Below the pieces are notes generated by a model, which saw nothing but the letters and a program-made list of their open reading frames with translations, was not told the origin of the DNA and did not search any database. DNA of 64,000 nucleotides, taken from NCBI RefSeq assembly GCF_000768065.1, contig NZ_JRKM01000001.1, positions 4,508,001-4,572,000 on the forward strand, in the 5' to 3' direction. The translations under genes were made by a program, and so were the position numbers. This DNA comes from Aquabacterium sp. NJ1 (GTDB lineage Bacteria; Pseudomonadota; Gammaproteobacteria; Burkholderiales; Burkholderiaceae_C). Each line of letters begins with the position of its first letter. The first letter of the stretch is position 1. Positions 32,028 through 63,924 of the stretch are shown one piece after another.

Positions 32028-32720
32028 CTATCGAAGTTCGAGCGTCAAGCCCGTGTCCCGCAGGCGTTGCAACAAGGCGGCGCTGGGTGGTGCCCAGGTG
32101 GCGGTGAGGTCGGCGTGTTGCGTGTGGGCAGGGCGGAACTGCTGGATCACCCAGTGCTGGATGCCCAGCCGCACGAGCGAGTCGGCCAGTGCGGCGAGCT
32201 GGTCGTCACTGTGCAGGTCGGGGTGGTAAGTGGTGCGGATCTCCAGGCCCAGGTTCTGGCGCTTGATGGCCTGCAGCACAGCCTGGAGGCTGCGCCAGGC
32301 GGGCAGGCCGCTGCGTGGCATGTCGGTGACCGCTTCGTAGTCAGCAAAGTTGGCCTTGATGTCAAAGCCGATCCAGTCAAGCATCGGCAGCACCTTCTCC
32401 AGCTTGTCGGGGTAGATGCCCGCCGTGTGCAGCCCGGCTTTGAAGCCCATGCTGCGCACGGTGTCGATGGCGTCCCCCAGTTCGGGGTCGAGGGTGGGTT
32501 CCCCACCGCTGAACACGACCCCGTCGAGCAGGCCTTTGCGGCGCGCCAGCGTGCCCACCACGTGCTGCCAGCCCGCAGGCGTGCCGCCTTCGCGGCTTTG
32601 CAGATCCACGTTGTGGCAGTAGTGGCAGCGCCAGGGGCAGCCCTGCACGAACACCACGGCGGCCAGCTGGCCTGGCCAGTCCGAGGTGCTCAGGGGGGTG
32701 AAGCCACCAACTTTCAGCAT
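32028..32720 (-). CDS. nrdG: Anaerobic ribonucleotide reductase activating enzyme NrdG
   Basis: 230-residue radical-SAM activase that generates the glycyl radical on NrdD. The cluster motif is Cys28-x3-Cys32-x2-Cys35 (GCPWRCHYCHN), followed by FSGGEPTLD for SAM binding. It is longer than E. coli NrdG (154) and closer to the NrdG2/'anaerobic ribonucleoside-triphosphate reductase activating protein' type. Its ATG overlaps by 7 bp the stop of the small glycyl-radical ORF, so the two are translationally coupled. Confidence 0.92.
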   Translation of the reverse strand: MLKVGGFTPLSTSDWPGQLAAVVFVQGCPWRCHYCHNVDLQSREGGTPAGWQHVVGTLARRKGLLDGVVFSGGEPTLDPELGDAIDTVRSMGFKAGLHTAGIYPDKLEKVLPMLDWIGFDIKANFADYEAVTDMPRSGLPAWRSLQAVLQAIKRQNLGLEIRTTYHPDLHSDDQLAALADSLVRLGIQHWVIQQFRPAHTQHADLTATWAPPSAALLQRLRDTGLTLELR

Positions 32721-32893
32721 GCCTTGCCAGGCTCCTTGAAGTAGATGCGTTCGGCGAACTCACCCTTCTTGCCCGTGTTGAACGAGGACACCGGGCGGTG
32801 GTAGCCCATCACGCGGGTCCAGATCTCGCAGCGCTGGCGCTCGTTGTCAGCGAGAACGGGGTGGGCAGCTTGGGGTTGGCGAATGGTCATCAT
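32714..32893 (-). CDS. Stand-alone glycyl-radical segment of class III ribonucleotide reductase (59 aa)
   Basis: Short ORF of 59 residues beginning MMTIRQPQ and ending GKAC. It contains TRVMGYHRPVSSFNTGKKGEF, read as RVMGY plus HRPVSSFNTGKKGEF, which corresponds to the C-terminal glycyl-radical loop of NrdD (RVxGYxRPVxxxNxGKxxEF), with Gly30 as the radical site. The large NrdD ORF upstream ends just before this segment. The ORF is in the same frame as nrdD, separated from it by one UGA and 42 further bases with no other stop. CAGGAG lies 9 bp before its ATG, so separate translation is plausible; readthrough of UGA is an alternative. It overlaps nrdG by 7 bp. Confidence 0.82.
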   Translation of the reverse strand: MMTIRQPQAAHPVLADNERQRCEIWTRVMGYHRPVSSFNTGKKGEFAERIYFKEPGKAC

Positions 32894-32935
32894 GGTTGAT
32901 TGCTCCTGGTCGAGTGGGGAAAGTGGTCGGTCATG

Positions 32936-34978
32936 TCAGTGGTGAGGGCAGCAGGTGTCGGCCTGCTGGGGTTCGGTGCGCTTGCGGGCAAGGGCCTCTT
33001 CGTCACACTTGGGGCAGAACTCGTGTTCACCTGACAGGTAGCCGTGTACCGGGCAGATCGAGAACGTCGGGGTGATGGTGATGTAAGGCAGCCTGAAGCG
33101 CGTCAGGGCACGTTTGACCAACTCCTTGCAGGCGTTCGCCGAAGACACGCGCTCGCCCAGGTACAGGTGCAAAACAGTACCACCCGTGTACTTGGCCTGC
33201 AAGGCCTCCTGGCGCTCCAGCGCTTCGAACGGGTCGTCGCAGAAGCCCACGGGCAGTTGCGAGGAGTTCGTGTAGTAAGGCATGTCGCTGGGGCCGGCTT
33301 GCAGGATGTCGGCGAAGCGCTTGAGGTCTTCCTTGGCGAAGCGGTAGGTGGTGCCTTCTGCCGGTGTGGCTTCGAGGTTGTAGAGGTGGCCGGTTTCTTC
33401 CTGGATGTCCGTGATGCGGGCGCGGATGTGGTCCAGGAAGCGCAGCGCAAAGGCCTCGCCCCACGGTGTGGTGATGTTTTCCTGGTCGCCCGTGAAGTTG
33501 CGGATCATCTCGTTGATGCCGTTCACGCCAAGCGTGGAGAAGTGGTTGCGCAAGGTGCCCAGGTAGCGCTTGGTGTAGGGGAAGAGCCCGTTGTCCATGT
33601 GCTGCTGGATCACCTTGCGCTTGATCTCCAGGCTGTTCTTGCCCAGCTCGATCAGCTCGTCGGTGCGCGCCAGCAAGGCGGCTTCATCGTCCTTGTACAG
33701 GTAGCCCAGGCGTGCGCAGTTGATGGTCACCACACCCAGCGAGCCGGTCTGCTCGGCCGATCCGAACAGGCCGTTGCCGCGCTTGAGCAACTCACGCAGG
33801 TCCAGCTGCAGGCGGCAGCACATCGAGCGGATCATGTTGGGCTGCAGATCCGAGTTCAGGAAGTTCTGGAAGTAGGGCAAGCCGTACTTGGCCGTCATCT
33901 CGAACAGGCGCTCGGTGTTGGGGTGATCCCAGAGGAAGTCCTTGGTGATGTTGTAGGTGGGGATGGGGAAGGTGAAGGCGCGGCCCTTGGCGTCGCCGCG
34001 CATCATCACGTCGATGTAGGCCTGGTTGATCAGGTCCATCTCCACTTGCAGGTCGCCATAGGCAAAGGGCATTTCAACGCCTGCGATGACGGGTACCTGC
34101 TCCTTGAGGTCGTCGGGGCAGGTCCAGTCAAACGTCAGGTTGGTGAAGGGGGTTTGTGTGCCCCAGCGTGAAGGCACGTTGAGGTTGTAGACCAGCTCCT
34201 GGATGCACTGGCGGACTTGCTCGTAGCTCAGGCTGTCCTTGCGCACATAGGGCGCGAGGTAGGTGTCGAAGGAGCTGAAGGCCTGGGCACCGGCCCATTC
34301 GTTTTGCAGCGTGCCCAGGAAGTTGACGATCTGGCCCACGGCGCTGGACAGGTGCTTGGGTGGGCCGGCTTCCACTTTGCCGGGCACACCGTTGAGGCCT
34401 TCGTGCAGCAAGGTGCGCAGCGACCAGCCGGCGCAGTAGCCCGAGAGCATGTCCAGATCGTGGATGTGGATGTCGGCCTCGCGGTGGGCATGGCCGATCT
34501 CCGCGGGGTAGACGTGGGCCAGCCAGTAGTTGGCGATGACCTTGCCCGAGACGTTGAGGATCAGGCCGCCCAGCGAGTAGCCCTGATTGGCATTGGCGTT
34601 GACACGCCAGTCTTGCTGCGAGAGGTATTCGTTGACCGAGCGCTCGACGTCCACGGCGCAGGCCTTGTCGCGGCGCAAGGTGCTGCGCTGCTCGCGGTAG
34701 ACGATGTAGGCACGGGCCGTGTTGAAGTGGCCTGCTTCGATCAGCGTGCGTTCGACCTGATCCTGGATCTGCTCGACGGTGGGCACGCGCCGCTGCAAGG
34801 TGAGGCTGACCATGCGGGCCAGGTCGGCAGCGCGCAGGGCGTCGAATTCACCGGTGGCCTGGCCTGCGCTTTCGATGGCGTGGGCGATCTTGTCCAGATG
34901 GAAGCTGGCGGTGGCGCCATTGCGCTTGATCACGGCGACCGCGCAGGCCTCCGTCGAGGCGAGGGGGGTGTCTGGCAT
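32936..34978 (-). CDS. nrdD: Anaerobic ribonucleoside-triphosphate reductase large part NrdD (lacks glycyl-radical loop)
   Basis: 680 residues. An N-terminal ATP-cone (about 10-100: VIKRNGATASFHLDKI) is followed by the ten-stranded barrel region with SLRTLLHEGLNG, NLTFDWTCPDD and MCCRLQLDLRELLKRG. The zinc site CPVHGYL...FCPKC is near the end. The protein then stops with QADTCCPHH instead of continuing into the RVxGY glycyl-radical loop, which is encoded by the separate 59-aa ORF downstream in the same frame. Together they total about 740 residues, normal for NrdD. It makes dNTPs without O2, matching the anaerobic island. Confidence 0.93.
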   Translation of the reverse strand: MPDTPLASTEACAVAVIKRNGATASFHLDKIAHAIESAGQATGEFDALRAADLARMVSLTLQRRVPTVEQIQDQVERTLIEAGHFNTARAYIVYREQRSTLRRDKACAVDVERSVNEYLSQQDWRVNANANQGYSLGGLILNVSGKVIANYWLAHVYPAEIGHAHREADIHIHDLDMLSGYCAGWSLRTLLHEGLNGVPGKVEAGPPKHLSSAVGQIVNFLGTLQNEWAGAQAFSSFDTYLAPYVRKDSLSYEQVRQCIQELVYNLNVPSRWGTQTPFTNLTFDWTCPDDLKEQVPVIAGVEMPFAYGDLQVEMDLINQAYIDVMMRGDAKGRAFTFPIPTYNITKDFLWDHPNTERLFEMTAKYGLPYFQNFLNSDLQPNMIRSMCCRLQLDLRELLKRGNGLFGSAEQTGSLGVVTINCARLGYLYKDDEAALLARTDELIELGKNSLEIKRKVIQQHMDNGLFPYTKRYLGTLRNHFSTLGVNGINEMIRNFTGDQENITTPWGEAFALRFLDHIRARITDIQEETGHLYNLEATPAEGTTYRFAKEDLKRFADILQAGPSDMPYYTNSSQLPVGFCDDPFEALERQEALQAKYTGGTVLHLYLGERVSSANACKELVKRALTRFRLPYITITPTFSICPVHGYLSGEHEFCPKCDEEALARKRTEPQQADTCCPHH

Positions 34979-35058: not shown

Positions 35059-35072
35059 TTGACCCTGGTCAA
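35059..35072. promoter_or_regulatory. FNR/DNR-type palindrome between nrdD and hmp
   Basis: TTGACCCTGGTCAA is a perfect TTGAC-N4-GTCAA inverted repeat (eight of ten FNR positions). For nrdD on the minus strand it would be centred at -41.5 with AACACT (35031-35036) as a weak -10 and a 46-nt leader. It could also influence hmp, whose likely -10 is about 45 bp away. Confidence 0.6.
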
Positions 35073-52941: not shown

Positions 52942-53856
52942 TCAGAGGTAGTACATGTCGGCGTTGTGCAGCGCCCGCGCGCACTCGGGGCGGAAGGCGC
53001 GGTTGAAGTCGTCGGGCAGGGCAGGGCCAGACTTCCACGCAGCGAGGCCCACCTTGCCGGGCGCGTACGTCTTGCTGGGGTCCAGGGGATGAGGCGCGGT
53101 GGAGAAGGCGATCAGCGTGTCCATGTCGAAGCGCAGCTCGACCATCGCACCCGCCGCCGCATGGCCCGGCGCAAACTGGAATCGCCCATCGGCATCCACC
53201 GACACCTTGCTGAAGAAGTTGACGGGCGCGATGAGGTCACGTTTGCTCAAGCCGTATTTGCCGATCTCGATCAGCAGGCCGTCCTTGCCGCTTCGGTACA
53301 TCGCATTGCGATGCGTGTGGAAGCTGCGGTCTCCATATTGGGCATGCAGGCGCTCGGCATCCAGCAAGGCGCCCATGGGGTCGTGCCAGCCCAGGCTGTC
53401 TTCGGTGATGCTGGCCAGTGCGCGGCCCATGTCGCTCATCAACACGTGGCCGCGCGTGTAGTGGGCCGTGTGCTGTGCCTTGAGCGAGTCCGGCATGTTG
53501 TAGCGCTCCAGCTTTTCCCGGGCGTGATACAGCACCATGCTGAGGTTCGCACCAGCGTCCAGCGCCACCAAACGCAGGCGGCTTCCCCTCGGCATCACAT
53601 AGGACCAGTGGCCACCGCCTGGCACGATCTCGGACCACATCACGCGCTCGGCGGGCAGCTCAGGTGCAAAGCCTCGCCAATGCGGCCATGCGTCTACCGG
53701 CTGGCTGGATGGTGGGTTGGCAGGGGAGGCTGTGTGCGCATCTGCGCCGGGGGTACCTGAGGGGCCATGATCGCGGCGACCGCGACCATGGCTCCAGGTA
53801 CGGGCGTCAGACAGTTCATCACTGGATGACGGACTACGCTGTTCGTCGGCTTGCAT
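52942..53856 (-). CDS. DUF1989 protein, carboxyguanidine deiminase subunit (UAAP1-type)
   Basis: 304 residues, second DUF1989 partner (formerly 'urea amidolyase associated protein 1'). The family domain starts near residue 75 (VPGGGHWSYVMPRGSRLRL, then HTHRNAMYRSGKDG and APVNFFSKVSV). The first ~70 residues are Ser/Asp/Pro/Arg-rich, look disordered and are longer than usual for the family. ATG 53856 follows GGAGGG and lies 60 bp after the riboswitch; the frame runs on through the riboswitch but cannot be coding there. First gene of the guanidine operon. Confidence 0.87.
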   Translation of the reverse strand: MQADEQRSPSSSDELSDARTWSHGRGRRDHGPSGTPGADAHTASPANPPSSQPVDAWPHWRGFAPELPAERVMWSEIVPGGGHWSYVMPRGSRLRLVALDAGANLSMVLYHAREKLERYNMPDSLKAQHTAHYTRGHVLMSDMGRALASITEDSLGWHDPMGALLDAERLHAQYGDRSFHTHRNAMYRSGKDGLLIEIGKYGLSKRDLIAPVNFFSKVSVDADGRFQFAPGHAAAGAMVELRFDMDTLIAFSTAPHPLDPSKTYAPGKVGLAAWKSGPALPDDFNRAFRPECARALHNADMYYL

Positions 53857-53915
53857 CAGGCACCCTCCAAGGCAGGTTGAAAGCACGTGAGAGGACACTT
53901 CATGCGCTGAAGCGA

Positions 53916-54022
53916 ACCTCCCGGGCTTTTGTCCCGCCGTGGAGCCAGTGTCGGTATGCAGCCGACTCGGGCCGGCAGCTCTCGGACCAGTCACCCCGCT
54001 GTGCGGAGCCGGAACCCTAGCC
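53916..54022 (-). ncRNA. Guanidine-I riboswitch (ykkC class)
   Basis: On the minus strand the conserved ykkC blocks occur in order: CTAGGGTTCCGG (54020-54009), ACTGGTCCGAGAGCTG, and ACGGCGGGACAAAAGCCCGG near the 3' end. These match the guanidine-binding aptamer consensus and its pairing pattern. The element lies in the leader of the DUF1989-DUF1989-carboxylase operon, so guanidine should switch it on. No T tract follows, so regulation at the ribosome site (about 50 nt downstream) is more likely than intrinsic termination. Confidence 0.93.
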
Positions 54023-54131
54023 ACCTTTTCAAAGCAACGACCATGAGCCGTTCCTCTCTGTGCTTTTCAATGAGCAAGAGTGATGCCAGGTCGCGGCAGG
54101 CGGCTTCAAGGCGCCTGGAGGGCGTTCTGGG

Positions 54132-54175
54132 CCTGGTTTGAGCCTTGTTTGAACCTTGTTCGCGCCCCGTTTGAG
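54132..54175. repeat. Four imperfect 11-bp direct repeats upstream of the riboswitch operon
   Basis: CCTGGTTTGAG, CCTTGTTTGAA, CCTTGTTCGCG and CCCCGTTTGAG follow one another without gaps. They lie in the 557-bp gap between the DUF1989 gene and the histidine kinase gene, about 110 bp upstream of the riboswitch 5' end. The 11-bp period is about one DNA turn, as for a cooperative binding site. No other structure is evident in the remaining gap (54176-54413). Confidence 0.6.
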
Positions 54176-54413
54176 CTTCTCGGGCGGCCGCCTGCCTGAT
54201 CCTGGTGCGCGACCCTGGTGCAAGACCGGACCGGGTGTTTTCCGGGGCTCGGATCTGGTGCGTTCCCCCGGCTTGAGGGGGCTGGAATGTCCTGTTCTGC
54301 CGCATTTGTGCAGTGCACCCAAGGGCGTTTACGGTGTTGTCGGGGCTCGCCGCTGTTGATACTGAACTTGTCGCCTGGGGTTGTTGTCTGGTCCTTGTCG
54401 GGTGACCCACCAC

Positions 54414-56360
54414 ATGTCTGCCGATCAAGCTCACGCCAAAACACTGTCCGAACAAGTCCGCATCACGCGGACCCGGCTGCTCTTTTCCCACATCCCGCTG
54501 GGGACGTCCGTCGCCGTCGGCCTGGGCTGCCTGATCACCCTCATGGTGGCTTACCTGGTCGATGGGGCGATCGGCCTGCACGCCTGGATCTGGCTGGGTG
54601 GGCTGGTGGCGCTGTCGTTGTCGCACATCCACCGCAGTCTCAGGTTCTTCCGATCCAGAGACCGGGGCCATCCTGCCTGGTTGAAGCGGGTCAAGTTGTC
54701 CATCCTGGTGCTCAGCACCTGGTGGGGCGGCCTGCTGTGGGCCATGCCCATCCAGGGCCATGTCGATGTGCAGGCCGCCTTGGTGGGGGCGCTGATCGGC
54801 CTGGCAGCCTGCGGCGCCTTCATGCTGACGGTGGACCGGGCCAGCGCGCGTTGCTGGTTCACGCCCATGCTGATGTCGGTGGCGGCGTACTGCGCAGCGC
54901 AGGGCTCGGTGCTGGGCCTGTTCGGTTTCATCAATGTGGCGGGCTTCATCGGTGTGCTGTGGCTTGAAACCGGGCGCGCGCACCGCCGCATGGACGAGTT
55001 GCTGTTCCTGCGCTTCACCAATGACCGCGTCACCGCATCCCAGGCCGCCGCCTTGCGCGAGGCGGAGGAACTGAACCAGGCCAAGGGGCAGTTCCTGGCC
55101 ACCATGAGCCATGAGATGCGCACGCCGCTACACGGCATCCTGGGGCTGTCGCGTCTGATCCGGGCCGAGCTGCAAAGCCAGGATGCGCACGAACGCATGA
55201 ACCTGCTGGAGGCATCAGGCCAGCACCTGCTGGGTGTGATCAACGACGTGCTGGACTACTCTCGCCTGCAAGCCGGCCGGATGGAGTTGTCCCCTGCGGC
55301 GCTTCGCCTGCCTGCGCTGGTTCGCGAGGTGACCTCGCTGGCGGCGGTCAACGGGCTCGACAAAGGGCTGGATGTGGCCATGGCCTGCGAGCTGCCTGAT
55401 GACTATGTCGTCGAGGTGGATGGCGGCCGCCTCAAGCAGATCCTCTACAACCTGCTGGGCAATGCCGTGAAGTTCACCGAGCGCGGCAAGGTGACCATGC
55501 GGGTGCGGGAGATCGCCGATGCGCGCGCAGGCCAGCGGCAAATCAGCCTGGAGGTCGAGGACACCGGCATCGGCATCCCCTCGCATGAGCTGAGCCGTGT
55601 GTTCGACGCCTTCCATCAGGTGGATGGCCGCTACGAGCGCCGGACGGCCGGCAGCGGCCTGGGGCTGAGCATCGCGCGTGAGCTTTGCCTGGCCATGGGC
55701 GGTGACCTGACCTGCGACAGCGAGGCCGGCAAAGGCTCTGTTTTTCGCTGCGTGTTGCCCTTGAAGCGCGTACCGGCGCCCGTGGTGAGCGACGCCGCAT
55801 CCGCAGCCCAGGTTGCGCCTCGGGCCGCCATGGCCCCCGTACATCATGAGACACCGGCTGGCGCTGCGGTGCCGCGCGAAGCCTTGCCCGAGGCAAACGG
55901 CAAGCCTGTGCATGACAGCGCCACACAGCAGGCGGCCACCGTGCTGCTAGTGGAGGACAACCCCGTGAACGCCATCGTGGCGCGCACCGAGCTGGAGCAA
56001 ATGGGTTTGCAGGTGGCGCACGCCGAAAACGGCCAGCTCGCGCTGGACTGGCTGGCCGAGCACGAGGCGGATCTGGTGCTCATGGACTGCCACATGCCCG
56101 AGATGAACGGCTTTGACGCCACCCGACACATCCGCGCCATCGAGAGCCAACGCGGCGATGCGCCCGTGCCCATCGTGGCGCTCACGGCCAGCACGCATCA
56201 GGACGTTCAGCAAGCCTGCTTGCAGGCCGGCATGAACGATTGCTTGTCCAAACCCTTCCTGCACGGGGAGCTGCTGCGCATCGTCAAGCGGCATGTGAGC
56301 GACCGTAGCCGACGCGCCCGCCGAAGGCAGCGCGGCCCTGGCCTCGTGGTCGCGACCTGA
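54414..56360 (+). CDS. Hybrid sensor histidine kinase/response regulator
   Basis: About 648 residues. Five or six TM helices at about 28-190, then a cytoplasmic HisKA domain with phospho-acceptor His233 (MSHEMRTPLHGIL), HATPase (N-box LYNLLGNAVKFTERG, G1 VEDTGIGI, G2 GSGLGLSIA), an Ala/Pro-rich linker, and a C-terminal receiver with Asp558 (LVLMDCHMPEMNG). No periplasmic sensor domain is seen, so the membrane part may sense. No cognate regulator is adjacent. ATG 54414 starts the hydrophilic MSADQAHAK; a start at 54381 is open but unsupported. Confidence 0.9.
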   Translation: MSADQAHAKTLSEQVRITRTRLLFSHIPLGTSVAVGLGCLITLMVAYLVDGAIGLHAWIWLGGLVALSLSHIHRSLRFFRSRDRGHPAWLKRVKLSILVLSTWWGGLLWAMPIQGHVDVQAALVGALIGLAACGAFMLTVDRASARCWFTPMLMSVAAYCAAQGSVLGLFGFINVAGFIGVLWLETGRAHRRMDELLFLRFTNDRVTASQAAALREAEELNQAKGQFLATMSHEMRTPLHGILGLSRLIRAELQSQDAHERMNLLEASGQHLLGVINDVLDYSRLQAGRMELSPAALRLPALVREVTSLAAVNGLDKGLDVAMACELPDDYVVEVDGGRLKQILYNLLGNAVKFTERGKVTMRVREIADARAGQRQISLEVEDTGIGIPSHELSRVFDAFHQVDGRYERRTAGSGLGLSIARELCLAMGGDLTCDSEAGKGSVFRCVLPLKRVPAPVVSDAASAAQVAPRAAMAPVHHETPAGAAVPREALPEANGKPVHDSATQQAATVLLVEDNPVNAIVARTELEQMGLQVAHAENGQLALDWLAEHEADLVLMDCHMPEMNGFDATRHIRAIESQRGDAPVPIVALTASTHQDVQQACLQAGMNDCLSKPFLHGELLRIVKRHVSDRSRRARRRQRGPGLVVAT

Positions 56361-56421
56361 CGGCGATTAGATCGCCATCTGATCTCGACCTGGCCCGCGC
56401 TGCTGACCCGGACCCGGTCGC

Positions 56422-58314
56422 TCAGCGCGTCAACGGCCTGGTGCGCTCCATCATCCAGGCCAGCGCATCGCCTTCCAGCAGCGGCATCAGGCGGCGGTGC
56501 ACCTCAGCATGGTAGGCATTGAGCCAGGCCAGCTCGTCATCGCGCATCAGGTTCAGGTCAATGCAGCGCGTGTCGATCGGGCACAGTGTGAGCGTCTCGA
56601 ACGCCAGGTACTCGCCATGCTCTGGCGTGCCCACCGGCGCATCAGGCACTTGCGGTGCCAAGGGCACGTTCAACACCAGGTTCTCGATGCGGATGCCCCA
56701 TTGCCTGGGGCGATACAGCGCCGGCTCGATGGACGTGATCATGCCCGGCTGCATGGCCATATTGGGATCCGGCATGGCCTTGGAGATGGACTGCGGCCCC
56801 TCGTGCACATTGAGGAAGTAGCCCACGCCGTGTCCTGTGCCATGGCCGAAATCCATGCCGTGCTCCCACATGGGCGCGCGCGCCACGGCGTCAAGCATGG
56901 GGCCCAGGGTGCCGCGCGGAAAGCGCATGCGCGACAAGCCCATGGTGCCTTTGAGCACCAGCGTGTAGTCGCGTTTCTGGGCCGCGCTCGGCGTGCCGAT
57001 GGCCCAGGTGCGGGTGATGTCCGTGGTGCCACCCAGGTACTGCGCCCCGGAGTCGATCAACAGTAGCCCTTCGGCGCACAAGCCCTGTGGCGTGCTGATC
57101 TGGGCGTGTGACTCAGGCGTGGCGCGGTAATGCGGCTGGGCGCCATTGCCATTGAAGCCCGCGATGGTGGGGAAGCTCAGTGACACATAGCCGGGTTGCC
57201 TGGCGCGCTCGGCGCTCAGGCGCTCGTCGATCGTCAACTCGCTGATGTGTTCGCGGCCCAGAGCCTGTTCCAGCCACGCGTAGAAGATGCACATGGCGGC
57301 GCCATCGCGCTCCATCGCCTCGCGGATGAAGGCGGCCTCGGCATCGGTCTTGCGCGACTTGGCCAGTGTGCTCGGGTTGATGGCCTCGATCACCTTGACG
57401 CCATCGGGCACGGCTTCACGCAGGCCCCAGGTGATGCGTTTCGGGTCGATAAGCAGGCAGGCGCCTTGGGGCAGGGCGCGGATCGCGGGCAGGGCTTGCG
57501 CATATGGCTGCACCCGCACACCGTCGTTCAGCAACCGTGCCTGCAAGGCGGCATCCACCTTGCCTTCACCCACAAAGAGATCGACCTTGTCCAAGCTGAC
57601 CAGGGCGTGCCCGAGGAACACGGGGTTGTAGTCCACATCCGCGCCGCGCAGGTTCAACAGCCAGGCCAGGTCATCGAGCGTGGCGATCCAGTGGTGCGTG
57701 GCGCCTTTGTCCTGCATGGCCTGGCGCAAGGCGGCCAGCTTGTCGCGGCGGGGCGTGGCGGCATAAGGCAGGGCATGCTCGTACACGGCAGCCGTGGGCA
57801 AGCCCGGGCGATCGGGCCAGATGCCATCCAGCACGTCGTCCTGGGTGCGAAGTTGCCATTGGCATGCCTTCAGGGCGTCGGCCAGCATCTGCGCCTGGGC
57901 CAGGCCCATCACCGTGCCATCAACGGCAAGGGTAAGCGTCTGCTTCTGGTCGGCATTCAGCGCGGCCAGATCAGGCTGCTCGACCAGCCATTGCACATAG
58001 GCGGGTACGGCCGGGCCATCGAGCTTGACCAGGTCCACGCCACTGCCGGCCAGTTCGGCCTCGGCTTGTTCCCAATAGCGGCTGTCGGTGAACACGGCGG
58101 CGCGGGTGGGTGACACCATCAGCGTGCCGGAAGAGCCGGTGAAGCCGCTGAACCAGACGCGCCCTTGCCAGCGCTCGGGCAGGTACTCGGACAGGTGCGG
58201 GTCGCTGCTGGGGATCAGCGCGGCGTGCCAACCTTTCTCGGCCAGGCGGCCACGCAGGGCTCGAAGTCGTGCGGAGATGGGGCTGGCTGCAGGGGCGGGG
58301 GCAGGAGCGTTCAC
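56422..58314 (-). CDS. Aminopeptidase P family protein (M24B metallopeptidase)
   Basis: About 630 residues, the large three-domain Xaa-Pro aminopeptidase type. The C-terminal pita-bread fold carries metal ligands in LLIDSGAQYLGGTTDITRTW, GTGHGVGYFLNVHEGP, SIEPALY and IRIENLVL. The two N-terminal creatinase-like domains precede it. GTG 58314 is chosen because family similarity begins there; the frame is open for 24 more codons and no clear ribosome site decides. It removes N-terminal residues from peptides with Pro at position 2. Confidence 0.9.
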   Translation of the reverse strand: MNAPAPAPAASPISARLRALRGRLAEKGWHAALIPSSDPHLSEYLPERWQGRVWFSGFTGSSGTLMVSPTRAAVFTDSRYWEQAEAELAGSGVDLVKLDGPAVPAYVQWLVEQPDLAALNADQKQTLTLAVDGTVMGLAQAQMLADALKACQWQLRTQDDVLDGIWPDRPGLPTAAVYEHALPYAATPRRDKLAALRQAMQDKGATHHWIATLDDLAWLLNLRGADVDYNPVFLGHALVSLDKVDLFVGEGKVDAALQARLLNDGVRVQPYAQALPAIRALPQGACLLIDPKRITWGLREAVPDGVKVIEAINPSTLAKSRKTDAEAAFIREAMERDGAAMCIFYAWLEQALGREHISELTIDERLSAERARQPGYVSLSFPTIAGFNGNGAQPHYRATPESHAQISTPQGLCAEGLLLIDSGAQYLGGTTDITRTWAIGTPSAAQKRDYTLVLKGTMGLSRMRFPRGTLGPMLDAVARAPMWEHGMDFGHGTGHGVGYFLNVHEGPQSISKAMPDPNMAMQPGMITSIEPALYRPRQWGIRIENLVLNVPLAPQVPDAPVGTPEHGEYLAFETLTLCPIDTRCIDLNLMRDDELAWLNAYHAEVHRRLMPLLEGDALAWMMERTRPLTR

Positions 58315-58453
58315 GGGGTAGGGGCGGCGCCTGGTTGCGCGCAGGTCAAAAACAGGCCCCCATGTTGCCACGAGCCGCGCGGCCATGGGTTGGCCGGGGT
58401 GAAGCGGTGGCGGAGGCCAGACACCCCAGCCACCGCGTGTGGCTCAAGCTGGC

Positions 58454-59977
58454 TCAGCGAGCCGGTGAGGGCTGCGCGCCGGCCGGGCCCGCCGAAGCTG
58501 ACGGTGCCGGCGTGACAGCCGGGGTGGCTGCGGTCACGCTCACGGGTGGCACGGGGGGCGGTGCCACGCGCACCAGCATGGCATTGGGCTCCAGCGCGTG
58601 CGGGTCCGGGAACACGCGTGCGTGGCGCTGCGAGGTGAAGTAGGCCCAGGCCCAGTCCATCATCACCACCGTGCGGTTGCGGAAGCCGATCAGGAAGTAC
58701 ACGTGCACGAACAGCCAGAACAACCAGGCCGAGAAGCCGCTGAACTTGATCTGCTTGTTGGTGAAGGGGATGTCCAGCATCGCCACGGCGGCGCGCTTGC
58801 CGATGGTGGCCATCGACCCGTAGTCGAAGTAGCGGAAGGCCTGGGGCTCCAGCCCCTTCATGCGGCGCATGATGTTGAACGCGGCCTTGCGGCCCATCTG
58901 CTTGGCGCCCGGGCTCACGCCAGGAACGGGCGTGGGGTGCTTGGGGTCCAGGTAGCTCTTGGCCGAAGCCAGGTCGCCCACCACATAGATGTTGCCGTGC
59001 CCGGGGATGGTGAGATCAGGCTGCACGATGACACGGCCAGCACGGTCCAGCTGGCAACCGGTGCTCTTGGCCAGGGCGCGGCCCAGCGGTGAAGCCGCCA
59101 CGCCTGCGGCCCACACCACGGTGCGGCTGGGCAGGAAGTGCGAGCTCACCTTGGTGCTGCCATCAGGCTGGGTTTCGTTGATGTCGTAGTGGATGCCAAA
59201 CGCCGTGATGTTGGTGACCTTGGCGCCCGTCAGCACCTCGGCGCCCAGCATCTCCAGCTGCTCTTTGGCTCGCTTGGACAATTCCTCTGTGAAGGTGCCC
59301 AGCACACGCGGTGCGCCCTCCAGCAAGATGACGCGTGCCACGCGCGAGTCGATGCGACGGAACTCGGCGCTCAAGGTCTGCTGCGCGATTTCAGCCATGG
59401 TGCCGGCCATTTCCACACCGGTGGGGCCCGCGCCCACCACGGCGAAGGTCAGCCAGGGTTCGCGTTTGGCAGGGTCGGTCTCGCGCTCGGCCTGCTCGAA
59501 GGCCGTCAGCACGCGACGGCGAATGGTGAAGGCGTCACCCAGTGTCTTCAGGCCGGGCGCGTACTTGGCCCAGTCGTCTCTGCCAAAATAGCTGTGTGTC
59601 GCGCCAGCGGCCAGGATCAGGTGGTCATAGTGGATGTGTTCGCCGCCATCCAGCACCACGCAGTCCGAAGCGGTGTCGATGGACGTCACTTCGCCCATAA
59701 GCACGGTCAGGTTGCCGCGCGCAATCTGCTTGCGCAGGATGTGGCGGATCGGGCCAGCAATGGCCGGTGCCGGCAGGCCGGCCGTCGCCACCTGGTACAG
59801 CAGAGGCTGGAACAGGTGGTGGTTCGTGCGGTCAATCACCACGATCTCGACGTCCGCGCCAGACAAGGCCTTGGCCGCCTCCAGGCCGCCAAACCCGCAG
59901 CCGATGATGACGACGCGGGGTTTTTGCTGCGCAGGGGTTGATCCGGTACCAGAGAACGACGAGGTAGATAGGGTCAT
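58454..59977 (-). CDS. ndh: Type II NADH dehydrogenase (Ndh)
   Basis: 507-residue non-proton-pumping NADH:quinone oxidoreductase. FAD motif VVIIGCGFGGLEAA is near the start and NAD motif FAVVGAGPTGVEMAG is central; NIYVVGDLASAKS is the third flavoprotein motif. A hydrophobic segment (FSAWLFWLFVHVYFLIGF) near 415-440 anchors it to the membrane. The C-terminal 45 residues are Ala/Pro-rich and probably disordered. ATG 59977 lies just inside a longer TTG frame. It could feed electrons to the quinone pool used by Nar. Confidence 0.93.
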   Translation of the reverse strand: MTLSTSSFSGTGSTPAQQKPRVVIIGCGFGGLEAAKALSGADVEIVVIDRTNHHLFQPLLYQVATAGLPAPAIAGPIRHILRKQIARGNLTVLMGEVTSIDTASDCVVLDGGEHIHYDHLILAAGATHSYFGRDDWAKYAPGLKTLGDAFTIRRRVLTAFEQAERETDPAKREPWLTFAVVGAGPTGVEMAGTMAEIAQQTLSAEFRRIDSRVARVILLEGAPRVLGTFTEELSKRAKEQLEMLGAEVLTGAKVTNITAFGIHYDINETQPDGSTKVSSHFLPSRTVVWAAGVAASPLGRALAKSTGCQLDRAGRVIVQPDLTIPGHGNIYVVGDLASAKSYLDPKHPTPVPGVSPGAKQMGRKAAFNIMRRMKGLEPQAFRYFDYGSMATIGKRAAVAMLDIPFTNKQIKFSGFSAWLFWLFVHVYFLIGFRNRTVVMMDWAWAYFTSQRHARVFPDPHALEPNAMLVRVAPPPVPPVSVTAATPAVTPAPSASAGPAGAQPSPAR

Positions 59978-60049
59978 GCGCGACAAGAGGGAAGGTGGGA
60001 CGAACAGGCGCCGGGCAGCTTGCGCGCCAGCGTCCTAAAGAACTAGGTA

Positions 60050-60058
60050 TTTATACCA
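60050..60058 (-). promoter_or_regulatory. Putative extended -10 promoter of ndh
   Basis: On the minus strand TGGTATAAA is an extended -10 (TGN plus TATAAA), 73 bp before the ndh start. It is the most AT-rich spot in the 146-bp gap. The -35 is poor, as is common with extended -10 promoters. Confidence 0.55.
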
Positions 60059-60123
60059 GTAACCCACTCTTTCATGTGGCTTTGCACCTCCCTGGTGCGC
60101 CCCTTGATTGCGGGTAAATTGCA

Positions 60124-62046
60124 TCAAATCGCCCCTTGGCGCAGGGGTGGGCAGGCTTCGGCGTCCGAGGTGAGGGGCGCTTTCGATATGACGAAACCGG
60201 CTTTGCCCGCATGCTTGGCCGCGTACATGGCCGCGTCTGCGCGCTGGCACAAGGCTTCGCCGGTTTCGCCGTCCTGCATGATGGCCGCCCCGATGCTGGG
60301 GCTGACCACCACAGCGTCCCCGTCCATGTCATGCGGCACCGACAGGCGCTCAACGATGCGCTGGCAGATGCGTACCACCTCACCCGGGTTGCCCGCACCC
60401 TCCAGGATCACGGTGAATTCGTCACCTGCCAGGCGGCACACGCAATCAGTCAGCCGCACGCAGGTCAGCAGGCGCCTGGCCACCTCGGCCAGCAGCTTGT
60501 CGCCCGCGGCGTGGCCGTAGCGGTCGTTCACGCCCTTGAAGCCGTCCAGGTCCACATACAGCACGGCCAGGGCCTGCGGGTTGCGTCGGGCCCGCGCCAA
60601 GGCCTGGCCCAGGCGTTCGCCAAAGGCGCGGCGGTTGGGCAGGCCGGTCAGGCTGTCGTGGCGGGCTTGCTCGGCCAGTTCGCGCTGGTGCGCCTTGAGC
60701 ACGGAGATGTCGCTGAACACCCGGATGTGCTGGGTGATCTTCTGCAGGTCATTGCGCAGGGTGCTCACGCTCAACCAGGTATCCAGATTGCGCCCATCCT
60801 GGCAGACCTGGTGGCTCTCGCCCGACCAACGCTGGCTGCCACGCAAGGCTTGCGTCACGCCCGGCAGGTGCGATTCACGCAAGGGCGGCATCCCCAGCAA
60901 TTCGGCGCTGCGCCCGATGACCTCGGCGGGTGTCATGCCCGTCAGGTTGAGGAAGGCCGGGTTCACCATCACGATGCGGTCCACGGCATCGCTCACCACG
61001 ATGGCCTCACCGGTCTCGTCGATCACCCGCGAGGCCAGCTTGAGTTGCGCGGCGGCTTCCCGCTGCGCGGTCACATCGTGGGCGATGGACAGGATATGGT
61101 CGACCTCGCCGTCCACGCCATACACCGGCGCCTTGATCAGGTCCACGATGCGCTCACCGTTGGGCGTGTTGTAGACCAGATTGGGAAAGTGGTGGATGCG
61201 CGGGTCGCGCAGCACGGCCAGATCCTGCTCGTCACCGCGGCGCGTGATCTCTGGCGGCAGCAGGCCGTTGGCCTTGCGATGCAGCACCTTGTTGGCGGGC
61301 AGTTGCATGATCTCTGCGGCCGCCTTGTTCCACACCACATACTCGCCAGCGGTGCTGGGGCGGGTGCTGCGCGCGAACACGGCCATGGGCAGGCAGTCCA
61401 CCAGCGTGCGGTAGAAAGCTTCACGTTCACGGGCTGCATCCATGGCCTGATGCGATTCGGTGATGTCGCGCGACACCAGCGCCACGCCACCATCCAGCGG
61501 GATGATCTGGTGGTGCAGCCAGCGTGCACCCAGCTGGTCGCCCTGGCGGGCATACAGATGCTCCTCGATCTGGGGCAGCCCGGACTCGATGGCGGCGTTC
61601 ACAAGATGCAGGAAGCTGTGCTGCAGCTGCGAGGGCAGCACGTCCATCAGCATCTGCTCCTGAAGCGGTGAGGCGTCGGCACCCAAGAGATCGTGGGCGC
61701 GCTGGTTGGCCTGCGCGATCTGGTATCCCAGGAAGCGGCCAAACGGGTCTCGCCTGGGTTGCAGCATCACGATGCCCACCTCGCAGCCCGTGGCCACGGC
61801 CTGCCAGAGCCGCTCGGTCTGCAAGGTCTGGTGCAGGCACCGGTGCATGCGCCTGTGGCAGAGCCACATGCTCAAGCCCGCCGCCCCGGCAATGAGCGCG
61901 CCCGGCCATTGGGCTGCAAAATGTGGCGAGGACGACAACACAAGACCGATCGCCAGGCCTGCGGTGGACAGCAATTGCGCTGTTGCCGAAGGGCGACGAT
62001 GGGTGGTGGGCGTCCCCATGGTCATCGAATGGATGAGCGAAGACAT
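60124..62046 (-). CDS. PAS-domain diguanylate cyclase-like protein (AGDEF variant)
   Basis: About 640 residues: two N-terminal TM segments (about 24-65), three PAS/PAC domains (about 75-450), and a C-terminal GGDEF domain (DSLTGLPNRRAF, YVDLDGFKGVNDRYGH). The signature is AGDEF (RLAGDEFTVIL), a variant that keeps the catalytic Asp-Glu-Phe; activity is possible but not certain. No EAL domain. ATG 62046 is preferred to a GTG two codons earlier. It is divergent from the Ser/Thr kinase gene. Confidence 0.88.
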   Translation of the reverse strand: MSSLIHSMTMGTPTTHRRPSATAQLLSTAGLAIGLVLSSSPHFAAQWPGALIAGAAGLSMWLCHRRMHRCLHQTLQTERLWQAVATGCEVGIVMLQPRRDPFGRFLGYQIAQANQRAHDLLGADASPLQEQMLMDVLPSQLQHSFLHLVNAAIESGLPQIEEHLYARQGDQLGARWLHHQIIPLDGGVALVSRDITESHQAMDAAREREAFYRTLVDCLPMAVFARSTRPSTAGEYVVWNKAAAEIMQLPANKVLHRKANGLLPPEITRRGDEQDLAVLRDPRIHHFPNLVYNTPNGERIVDLIKAPVYGVDGEVDHILSIAHDVTAQREAAAQLKLASRVIDETGEAIVVSDAVDRIVMVNPAFLNLTGMTPAEVIGRSAELLGMPPLRESHLPGVTQALRGSQRWSGESHQVCQDGRNLDTWLSVSTLRNDLQKITQHIRVFSDISVLKAHQRELAEQARHDSLTGLPNRRAFGERLGQALARARRNPQALAVLYVDLDGFKGVNDRYGHAAGDKLLAEVARRLLTCVRLTDCVCRLAGDEFTVILEGAGNPGEVVRICQRIVERLSVPHDMDGDAVVVSPSIGAAIMQDGETGEALCQRADAAMYAAKHAGKAGFVISKAPLTSDAEACPPLRQGAI

Positions 62047-62205
62047 GGACACCCCGACTGCAAATAAATAACAGTTGCCGGGTTTTCGGATGATCTATGC
62101 GCGGCTTGAGGGGTGTTTTCCGATAGGTGGGATGCCCAGCCTGCGTTAAGCTGCCCCCCACTGCATCAACGACCCCGTGTGTTGAGAGGGCTGCCGGCAT
62201 ACCGG

Positions 62206-63924
62206 ATGGCCATCATCCGTTCCATGCCGACCATTTCCGAGCACGACGCACTACCTGCAGGCACCCGACTTGGCGAGTTCGAGATCCAGAAGATCCTGGG
62301 TATCGGCGGCTTTGGCATCGTCTACCTGGCGATGGACCATGCCCTGCAGCGCCTGGTGGCCATCAAGGAATACATGCCCGCCGCACTGGCCGGGCGTGGG
62401 CCTGACAACGACGTCATCGTGCGTTCGGCCGCCGGCGCGGAGACCTTCACACTGGGCTTGCGCTCGTTCATCAACGAGGCACGCCTGCTGGCCCGCTTCG
62501 ACCACCCCTCGCTGGTCAAGGTCTACCGCTTCTGGGAGGCACACGGCACCGCCTACATGGTGATGCCGTATTACCAGGGCCAGACGCTGTTGCAGGTTCG
62601 CCGCGCCATGAGTGGCCCGCCAGACGAGGCCTGGTTGCGCCGCCTCATCATGCCCCTGCTGGGCGCGCTGGAGTGCCTGCACAAGGAAAACGTCTTCCAC
62701 CGCGACATCGCCCCGGACAACATCCTCTTGCTGGACGACGAAGATGGCCCGGCCAGGGGCCGCCCCGTCCTGCTGGACCTGGGGGCTGCCCGCAAGGTCA
62801 TCGGCGACCATTCGCAAACGCTGACGGCCATCGTCAAACCCAGCTTTGCGCCCATCGAGCAGTACGCCGAAACAGTCCAGATCCGCCAGGGGCCATGGAC
62901 GGATCTGTACGCACTGGCTGCCGTGGTGCACTTCTGTATCACCGGACGCCCGCCCATGCCCGCGACCGCGCGCGCCGTGCACGACGATCTGCCCACCTTG
63001 AAGCAGATGAGCTCGGGCCTGGCCAGCGGCTTCGATTGCCACCTCAGTGAATCTTTCGCCAGCGCCATCGACCACGCGCTGGCCGTTCGGCCGCAGGATC
63101 GGCCGGAATCCATCGCGGCCTGGCGCGAGGCCTTGTCAGGCATCGTCAGCGCGCCCGCTGCAGGCGTCGAACATGGGCCGGACTGGTCGCCCCAGACCGT
63201 CCTGGTTCGTCAGGAAGGCCACGAAACATCGCCAGGGCACAAAGCCATCGAGGCCCAGGCCTACATGACCACCATCCCGGCGGCAGGGCAGCTCCATGCG
63301 CCACCGACCTGGCCGTCCGCGCGGCAGCCAGGTGATACCGTGCCCGTGACCATGCCCCTTTCACCGCCGCCCCAGCCTCGCGATGCGGTGGCGCGGGGCT
63401 TGGCCAGTGGCCGCTCGCACGGTTGGTCACGCCATGGCCTGAAGTGGGCGCTTGCAGCCTTGGTACTGTTTGGGGTAATGGCCATCTGGTGGCTGCAGCG
63501 GACCAGTCACAAGGCGCGGCCTCAAGATGCGCTGACGGTGGCCGCACAGCAGGCCGTCGCTAAAAAAGCGGCCTCGACGCCCGATGCGAGGCGCGCGGAT
63601 CCATCAGGCGCCAATACCCGACCAGAAGCTCGACAGGATGCCCGATCGGATACCCGCAAACCAACGACCACCCTGGCCGCAGCCAGCGCCAGCGAAGCCA
63701 GGCCCCGGCGCCAGGCCCGTCAGGAAAGCGCGGCACCTCGCAAGGACGAAGAACGGGTTGCAGACACCAATGAGCCACTCAACCCCCGCAAGGCCTGCTC
63801 GGGCAAGTCGTTCATCTTGCTGGCCATCTGCATGAAGCGCCATTGCGCCAGGCCTGAATACGCGGCCCACCCGGAATGTGAGCGCATGCGGCAGCAGGAG
63901 GCGGCCCAGCGCCCCAATTACTGA
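62206..63924 (+). CDS. Hanks-type Ser/Thr protein kinase with a C-terminal membrane anchor
   Basis: About 572 residues. Cytoplasmic kinase domain (about 24-300): glycine loop GIGGFGIVY, catalytic Lys54 (VAIKEY), HRD with Asp167 (FHRDIAPDNIL), and DLG in place of DFG with Asp191, common in bacterial kinases. A Pro/Gln-rich linker is followed by a TM segment (about 412-432) and an extracytoplasmic Lys/Ala/Arg-rich tail ending in a small Cys-containing unit (RKACSG, ICMKRHCARPEYAAHPECE). ATG 62206 or 62224 are both possible. Targets unknown. Confidence 0.88.
   Translation: MAIIRSMPTISEHDALPAGTRLGEFEIQKILGIGGFGIVYLAMDHALQRLVAIKEYMPAALAGRGPDNDVIVRSAAGAETFTLGLRSFINEARLLARFDHPSLVKVYRFWEAHGTAYMVMPYYQGQTLLQVRRAMSGPPDEAWLRRLIMPLLGALECLHKENVFHRDIAPDNILLLDDEDGPARGRPVLLDLGAARKVIGDHSQTLTAIVKPSFAPIEQYAETVQIRQGPWTDLYALAAVVHFCITGRPPMPATARAVHDDLPTLKQMSSGLASGFDCHLSESFASAIDHALAVRPQDRPESIAAWREALSGIVSAPAAGVEHGPDWSPQTVLVRQEGHETSPGHKAIEAQAYMTTIPAAGQLHAPPTWPSARQPGDTVPVTMPLSPPPQPRDAVARGLASGRSHGWSRHGLKWALAALVLFGVMAIWWLQRTSHKARPQDALTVAAQQAVAKKAASTPDARRADPSGANTRPEARQDARSDTRKPTTTLAAASASEARPRRQARQESAAPRKDEERVADTNEPLNPRKACSGKSFILLAICMKRHCARPEYAAHPECERMRQQEAAQRPNY

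Follow-up and report, generated by a model that had tools for sequence, protein, structure and literature searches.

The window analysed here is a stretch of 64,000 nucleotides (nt) from Aquabacterium sp. NJ1 (contig NZ_JRKM01000001.1, positions 4,508,001 to 4,572,000 of the forward strand). The system in question is a locus on its minus strand in which the sequence of NrdD, the class III (anaerobic) ribonucleotide reductase (RNR), is distributed over two neighbouring genes, followed by a gene for the activase. The features of this locus, with their coordinates in the window, are as follows.

32936..34978, minus strand: nrdD core (alpha chain), 680 amino acids (aa), with the stop codon TGA at 32938-32936
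34682..34933, minus strand: ATP-cone, residues 16-99 of the core (PF03477, 75.3 bits)
33812..33823, minus strand: finger loop MCCR, residues 386-389, candidate site of the thiyl-radical cysteine, invariant in alignment A3
33005..33055, minus strand: putative zinc knuckle CPVHGY...CPKC (C642, H645, C655, C658), invariant in A3
32894..32935, minus strand: 42-nt spacer between nrdD and the small gene
32903-32907, minus strand: ribosome-binding site AGGAG, 9 nt before the first ATG and 12 nt before the second
32714..32893, minus strand: small gene, 59 aa (ERQRCEIWTRVMGYHRP), predicted separate glycyl-radical subunit of NrdD, matching PF13597 positions 530-562 of 562
32804..32806, minus strand: codon of Gly30, predicted radical glycine (RVMGY), invariant in the 13 rows of alignment A1
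32028..32720, minus strand: nrdG2, 230 aa, radical S-adenosylmethionine activase (TIGR02495, 179.8 bits, cut-off 131.15)

The nrdD core is composed of an ATP-cone, a class III catalytic barrel and a zinc knuckle, and the glycyl-radical loop is absent from it. Its MCCR finger-loop motif is of a class treated in PMC9669993, and the zinc role of CPVHGY...CPKC is putative, being carried over from known NrdD structures. Beyond the stop codon, the nrdD frame runs through the spacer for 14 codons without a further stop and reaches ATG-ATG at 32893, where the small open reading frame (ORF) begins; this ORF contains ERQRCEIWTRVMGYHRPVSSFNTGKKGEF and ends with TGA at 32716-32714. The start of nrdG2 (32720) lies inside the small gene, giving an overlap of 7 nt. 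This layout, with its stop, double ATG, ribosome site and overlap, is as described in the original prediction, which was made from the sequence alone. The "CPxC zinc ligands" noted there are also present, but they form only the second half of the putative site CPVH...CPKC.

The large and the small protein cover contiguous parts of one NrdD family model, in Pfam and likewise in the NrdD models of NCBIfam. The 680-aa chain matches NF006126 with 1127.5 bits (cut-off 548; profile positions 4-658 of 684), TIGR02487 with 457.7 bits (cut-off 326.35) and the Pfam family NRDD (PF13597) with 576.9 bits (cut-off 26.2; positions 2-530 of 562). The 59-aa protein takes up the same Pfam model at position 530 and follows it to its end (32.5 bits). 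At E values up to 1, it matched PF13597 alone in Pfam and the NrdD models alone in NCBIfam, with no match to YfiD/GrcA. In other words, the catalytic domain, the RVxGY loop and an adjoining NrdG2 activase, which together characterize a class III RNR, all occur at the locus. The radical loop, however, is not on the polypeptide of the barrel. Because it sits on a separate and conserved gene, beyond the stop at 32936-32938, the locus is classed as a two-chain variant of class III RNR.

Comparison with relatives indicates that these are two genes. A collection of 323 loci, some of them redundant, contained 310 with a core, of which 234 were labelled split, 53 fused, 18 unclear and five "ZN_noGly". 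The last five, repeats of two cores (L145/L163/L267 and L158/L165), were later counted as split, and four further loci (L310, L313, L320, L321) were counted as split by eye. From the loci labelled split alone, 161 distinct junctions were drawn. The stop codon at these junctions is TGA in 120, TAA in 31 and TAG in 10, so the search for the same stop in relatives, suggested with the original prediction, recovers it in part only. The distance from stop to loop varies from 28 to 302 nt, and its remainder modulo three is 0 in 38 junctions, 1 in 51 and 2 in 72; among the 38 that share the frame, 30 have no further stop. A relative with a 90%-identical small protein (L064) has three TGAs in the gap between the parts. 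What is conserved is the start: a start codon with a Shine–Dalgarno-like (SD-like) site lies upstream of the small ORF in 158 of the 161 junctions overall. In a control, an SD-like site stood before 142 of 1586 in-frame ATGs inside cores, the junction rule being somewhat more lenient since it may pick among several upstream starts. The small gene is under purifying selection: its ratio of nonsynonymous to synonymous substitution rates (dN/dS), taken over 44 codons in comparisons with seven relatives, is 0-0.11. The earlier view that the arrangement is maintained rather than degenerate is borne out by these figures. A search of the own genome for SelB gave 10 matches, none of them at the cut-off of 242.25 bits (best 185.6). 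Since stops, frames and gaps vary while starts are conserved, and no SelB was found above the cut-off, the locus is read as two genes rather than as read-through or decay. The shared frame of both ORFs in the window is a matter of chance, and the in-frame UGA is incidental to the split.

The two genes also travel together. Among 100 genomes (the own one and relatives), the small ORF was found in 39 and the NrdD core in the same 39, in 38 of them above its cut-off, as established by comparing two lists by hand. In these genomes, the matches to the small ORF lie in open frames of 63-285 aa, never in one of full length. Core and small gene lie within about 300 nt of each other on the same strand in 39 of 40 pairs; in the remaining pair, from G067, 9 kb of a single contig separates them. 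In a phylum sample of 397 genomes, 20 contained the core, 17 in split and 3 in fused form. Among the species-genome loci, the best 80 of 569 that encode a relative comprised 76 split, 1 fused and 3 unclear, with titles from Pseudomonadota and from metagenome-assembled genomes (MAGs) labelled Omnitrophota, Coriobacteriaceae, Actinobacteria, Verrucomicrobiota/Opitutaceae and Thermoflexus. The closest named relatives of the small ORF among these 80 are from Aquabacterium. An Actinomycetota sample gave 7 of 198 genomes above the cut-off: the split seed genome, four labelled fused and two unclear.

The usual picture of class III RNR is that of a single chain that stores its own glycyl radical. The locus in the window very probably encodes a two-chain form of this enzyme, in which the radical glycine would reside on a small separate subunit. 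The two chains of the original prediction stand at the level of genes, on the conserved starts (158/161, against 142/1586 in the control), co-occurrence (39/100), the 9-kb separation and selection, and their joint working is inferred. The first gene would provide the NrdD core, which has the ATP-cone, the barrel, the finger loop and the zinc knuckle, the second a subunit of about 60 residues with the glycyl-radical loop alone, and the third the activase NrdG2, which would place the radical on Gly30 of the second chain. By docking in the core, this chain would then bring Gly30 to the finger-loop cysteine, just like the covalent loop of an ordinary NrdD.

As described in PMC12662201 and PMC11226230, the glycyl-radical domain first moves out of the core, and NrdG takes a hydrogen from the glycine; once the domain has swung back, the radical is handed on to the active site. 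Separation would suit this need of the domain to flip out for activation. Because the moving domain would be a protein of its own, flip-out could turn into dissociation. Because it is separate, a small chain cleaved by oxygen could be replaced cheaply by a fresh copy, while the 76-kDa core is kept.

The enzyme shares the ATP-cone, barrel, MCCR motif, zinc knuckle, RVxGY loop and NrdG2 with known class III NrdD (structures from T4, T. maritima, P. copri and S. thermophilus; NF006126/PRK08270). It differs from those structures and from fused members of the family, which carry the loop C-terminally on one chain, in having it on a separate gene. The split class II RNR of P. aeruginosa, NrdJa/NrdJb, is likewise made of two chains divided near the C-terminus, but it is B12-dependent, and NrdJb is described in PMC9669993 as having IscU-like and zinc domains and no radical residue. 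Searches of open-licence papers yielded no description of a split NrdD. On the best reading, the two-gene class III RNR is annotated piecewise in databases and apparently undescribed in that literature. If the reading is true, the locus offers a natural system for studying radical installation, docking, transfer and oxygen damage with separable parts, and a widespread lineage appears to keep its radical on a subunit of some 60 residues that can dissociate.

Several points weigh against this interpretation. The 36 best Foldseek rows obtained with a predicted model were all NrdD chains, but in that model an artificial linker connects the two chains, and the alignments are reported by their first and last residues alone. 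The confidence of the model (predicted local distance difference test, pLDDT) averages 71, with 62, 79 and 58 in three blocks of residues 701-730 and values below 50 in the finger loop (383-414). Given the moderate pLDDT, the linker and the end-only alignment, the model indicates compatibility at most, not binding or the placement of Gly30 at the finger loop. Three of the 161 small ORFs have no clear start and SD-like site by the rule used, the small ORF of one Omnitrophota locus (L319) has no evident ATG start, and many of the sequences come from MAGs. Co-occurrence is imperfect in a class sample of 370 genomes, where the small or loop match was found in 37, the core match in 36 and both in 34, four of the latter being fused (G110, G149, G386, G453). 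The loop match occurs without a core in G229, G286 (weak) and G330 (another NrdD type); the one in G229 lies at a contig end in a scrambled frame and was left out of the orphan count described below. The core match occurs without a loop in G181 and G302, both weak and below the cut-off. Finally, Siedow et al. 1999 reportedly assigned the radical of Cupriavidus necator H16 to G650 of its 76.2-kDa NrdD.

This report bears on an alternative in which the large chain uses the HGY glycine of its own zinc knuckle (G646 in the window, G650 in H16) and the small protein is an accessory only. On plasmid pHG1 of H16, the annotation gives a 676-aa "ribonucleoside triphosphate reductase", a 66-aa "nrdD" and then the activase. 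The mass calculated for the 676-residue NrdD (L202:1795-3825) is 76,191 Da, and G650 of this chain stands in CPTHGYL of the zinc knuckle, not in RVxGY, so that mass and position fit the reported numbers. The nrdD and nrdG genes of pHG1 are said by Siedow et al. 1999 to be required for anaerobic growth, and the G650A mutant of their NrdD reportedly behaves like the deletion strain; G646 is also invariant in alignment A3. Yet the HGY glycine is flanked by putative zinc ligands, and HGY is present in fused NrdDs together with a later RVxGY loop. Furthermore, the G and Y of the small-gene loop are invariant in the 13 rows of A1, and RVMGY occurs in 80 of 80 viral orphan domains of the first type described below, in a count whose regular expression required G and Y/F while the collection scan required neither. 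The G650A phenotype could equally stem from damage to the zinc site, and this alternative is considered unlikely. The canonical loop of H16 is on the 66-aa protein, with G36 as its glycine. If G650 was assigned as reported, the assignment may need re-examination, G36 being the likely radical glycine.

It is quite unlikely that the linked small gene is only a repair part for an otherwise working core, as a strict YfiD model would have it, instead of an obligatory subunit. Spare parts of the YfiD type are known for pyruvate formate-lyase, and PMC8683613 considers others possible. In the present case, the core is without the radical loop, which leaves nothing in it to be repaired, so that the small protein cannot be a mere spare. 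Moreover, core and small gene occur in the same 39 of 100 genomes. The comparison with YfiD drawn in the original prediction holds as an analogy and goes no further, as the small protein matches NRDD and no YfiD/GrcA model and would be a required subunit, not a repair part. What YfiD/GrcA and Y06I share with it is a small free-standing glycyl-radical domain that completes a large core, and solitary copies on viral contigs are a further common point.

Read-through of the UGA, by ordinary suppression or as selenocysteine, would produce one chain of 754 residues; read-through by some ribosomes had been the second option of the original prediction. The frame of the window is indeed open across its single TGA, as are 30 of the 161 junctions across one stop codon. 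Against this, TAA or TAG is present at 41 of 161 junctions, the small ORF is out of frame in 123 of 161, and the close relative L064 has its three TGAs. In the own genome, in which no SelB exceeds the cut-off, the two best matches (186 bits) lie in frames of 438 and 450 codons, the size of EF-Tu. As UGA and frame are not conserved in relatives and no SelB reaches the cut-off, recoding was rejected as very unlikely. A sequencing error or decaying pseudogene, typical as a lone in-frame stop within an essential enzyme would be of error, was likewise rejected and is barely credible, given that the same layout recurs in independent complete plasmid records of seven genera, dN/dS is 0-0.11 and the overlapping nrdG is intact.

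Fused and split forms were compared in a tree of cores built without the loop, which covered 77 of 172 rows; rows below 40% identity or without the whole core were excluded. One supported clade contains 49 split and 4 fused rows. Within this split-rich clade, the fused enzyme of an Acidiphilium plasmid (L204) is sister to a split one on a starred branch, and the fused G764 enzyme (L161) is sister to that of split Sulfuricurvum (L211), with starred but long branches. Fused Actinomyces oris (L205) branches near the base of the clade. The fused form of a SZUA-601 MAG (L125) is also nested among split enzymes. This partial gene (L125:3-1679; the same gene as L189) has a long linker and two tandem glycyl loops in one frame. 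In the Omnitrophota sample, splits appear at two places within another, mostly fused clade, namely in L310/L313/L320/L321 and, more weakly, in L319. In L310 and L313, the third zinc ligand is the last one on the core, and the small protein starts near a cysteine that aligns with the fourth; L320 and L321 resemble them. This suggests a cut inside the zinc knuckle, with the fourth zinc cysteine possibly supplied by the small chain and the site shared by two chains. The tree needs seven changes among three labels. It is a quick tree with a midpoint root and long branches at L162, L270, L158, L316 and L161/L211, and for this reason fissions and fusions cannot be separated in the count.

Among plasmids with complete records, the split arrangement is present in those of C. 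necator H16, Sulfuricystis, Azospira, Sulfuricurvum, Shinella, Bradyrhizobium and Paracoccus. The two-piece annotation of pHG1 is seen on other plasmids too. RefSeq lists both pieces for part of the records, and elsewhere the small piece is called "hypothetical" or no gene is given for it. Comparison of the lists gave 28 plasmid records with the small domain, 27 with the core and 26 with both. A Geoalkalibacter plasmid carries the core alone. Allochromatium vinosum pALVIN01 (L206:3980-4189) and A. tepidum pAt1 (L207:2460-2645) have a solitary domain with no core on the whole plasmid, and nrdG is absent among the neighbours shown at both domains.

Some plasmid and related loci have features of mobile DNA. 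On Azospira pAZI09 (53620-63748; L209), a cassette consists of a class I alpha subunit, the split nrdD, the small nrdD, nrdG and a class I beta subunit, and it adjoins an integrase and a Tn3 transposase on a plasmid typed as IncP. On a Bradyrhizobium japonicum plasmid (NZ_CP126016.1, 48231-51612), the nrdD match is in two pieces with an IS3-like transposase beneath, apparently interrupted by an insertion. Genome G336 has a second, unlinked small gene (G336:C3:9000-27000; L266) near a class II NrdJ, an SSB and a lambda-exonuclease-family protein, a locus that looks like a mobile element.

Domains of the same kind occur without a core on viral contigs. A scan of IMG/VR with the split-type domain yielded 128 contigs that encode the small domain, 80 of which were kept (L324-L403). 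No blastp match to an NrdD core or NrdG was obtained in any of the 80 fetched loci, some of which end close to the gene. When 50 of these records were searched whole with PF13597, each gave one match, confined to the loop end (position 521 on); these records may be incomplete, and the viruses may have a core elsewhere. A second scan, for the VYSRVVGY type, found 360 contigs, and 80 were kept (L404-L483), comprising 46 fused NrdDs, 26 orphans, 2 labelled linked, 1 cut and 5 without the motif. One of the two linked, L445, seems to be a fused enzyme whose frames are broken. Of 29 viral records of this type searched whole, 28 contain the C-terminal part alone (positions 509-562), and the other (L464) has a loop-less core plus a small gene upstream of it. 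Both scans were pattern-based and favour conserved loops, and the contigs are partial and include some near-duplicates.

Among the 80 viral orphans of the first type, a start with an SD-like site is present in 66, while 11 are without and 3 could not be judged. The median dN/dS is 0.21 over 165 non-independent pairs (range 0.02-0.70, with 116 below 0.3). Among 20 large neighbouring ORFs, one from each of 20 contigs of this type, PHROGs matches were to head, packaging, connector or tail families in 12 and to replication or RNA-binding families in 4; 2 matched families of unknown function alone and 2 had no match. The small protein of the window and 8 viral orphans, all 9 of those scanned, match PHROG 4132, a phage family of 179 positions and "unknown function". 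These matches are confined to positions 114-162, about 110 further N-terminal positions of the profile being unmatched here. Some viral orphans bear a cysteine-rich N-terminal extension. In isolated phages, tblastn with the window small protein found no match at E<=1e-3, and a viral-orphan query gave weak matches only at E<=1 (best 0.03); with no convincing match there, the support for the orphans comes from IMG/VR contigs and from plasmids.

The chances are about even that the glycyl-radical domain of class III RNR is a mobile, exchangeable part, activated by the NrdG of the host and docking on its NrdD. Such a viral domain would serve split hosts as a radical subunit, or fused hosts cleaved by oxygen as a spare part, and after infection would keep the anaerobic synthesis of deoxynucleoside triphosphates running. 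The orphan versions resemble different cellular NrdD subfamilies, WTRVMGYHRP and VYSRVVGYLRP. It is plausible that these viral and plasmid copies are where a spare-part role fits. If so, they would be the class III RNR counterpart of the spare part Y06I of phage T4, an autonomous glycyl radical cofactor of pyruvate formate-lyase. PMC8683613 (JBC 2021) raises the possibility of spare parts for glycyl radical enzymes beyond pyruvate formate-lyase. With the orphan domains, this wider idea becomes open to testing, and a phage family so far without an assigned function gains a candidate one. Within the whole finding, the orphans on phages and plasmids are the more novel side.

Some cores have unusual structures. 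Insertions of several hundred residues, in frame, were seen within NrdD cores at model positions of about 218-266 (G216:C2, G462:C37, G901:C34, G1137:C26, G1046:C9) and, in L464:3335-6422, near PF13597 position 100 (about 340 aa); they are probably inteins. The cores of Massilia sp. H-1 (L107) and Paludibacterium denitrificans (L102) are broken over several frames, probably through assembly or sequence errors.

One further feature lies upstream of nrdD in the window.

35059..35072, minus strand: FNR/Dnr-type palindrome TTGACCAGGGTCAA, 81-94 bp upstream of the nrdD start

The palindrome is the single match in the 64 kb, where 0.11 were expected and at least one match arose in 11 of 100 shuffles. 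It sits between nrdD and a divergent gene for a flavohemoprotein and may have a regulatory role. The neighbours of the locus, UbiV for anaerobic ubiquinone synthesis and the flavohemoprotein, which is of the nitric-oxide-inducible kind, plausibly fit an anaerobic-nitrate setting.

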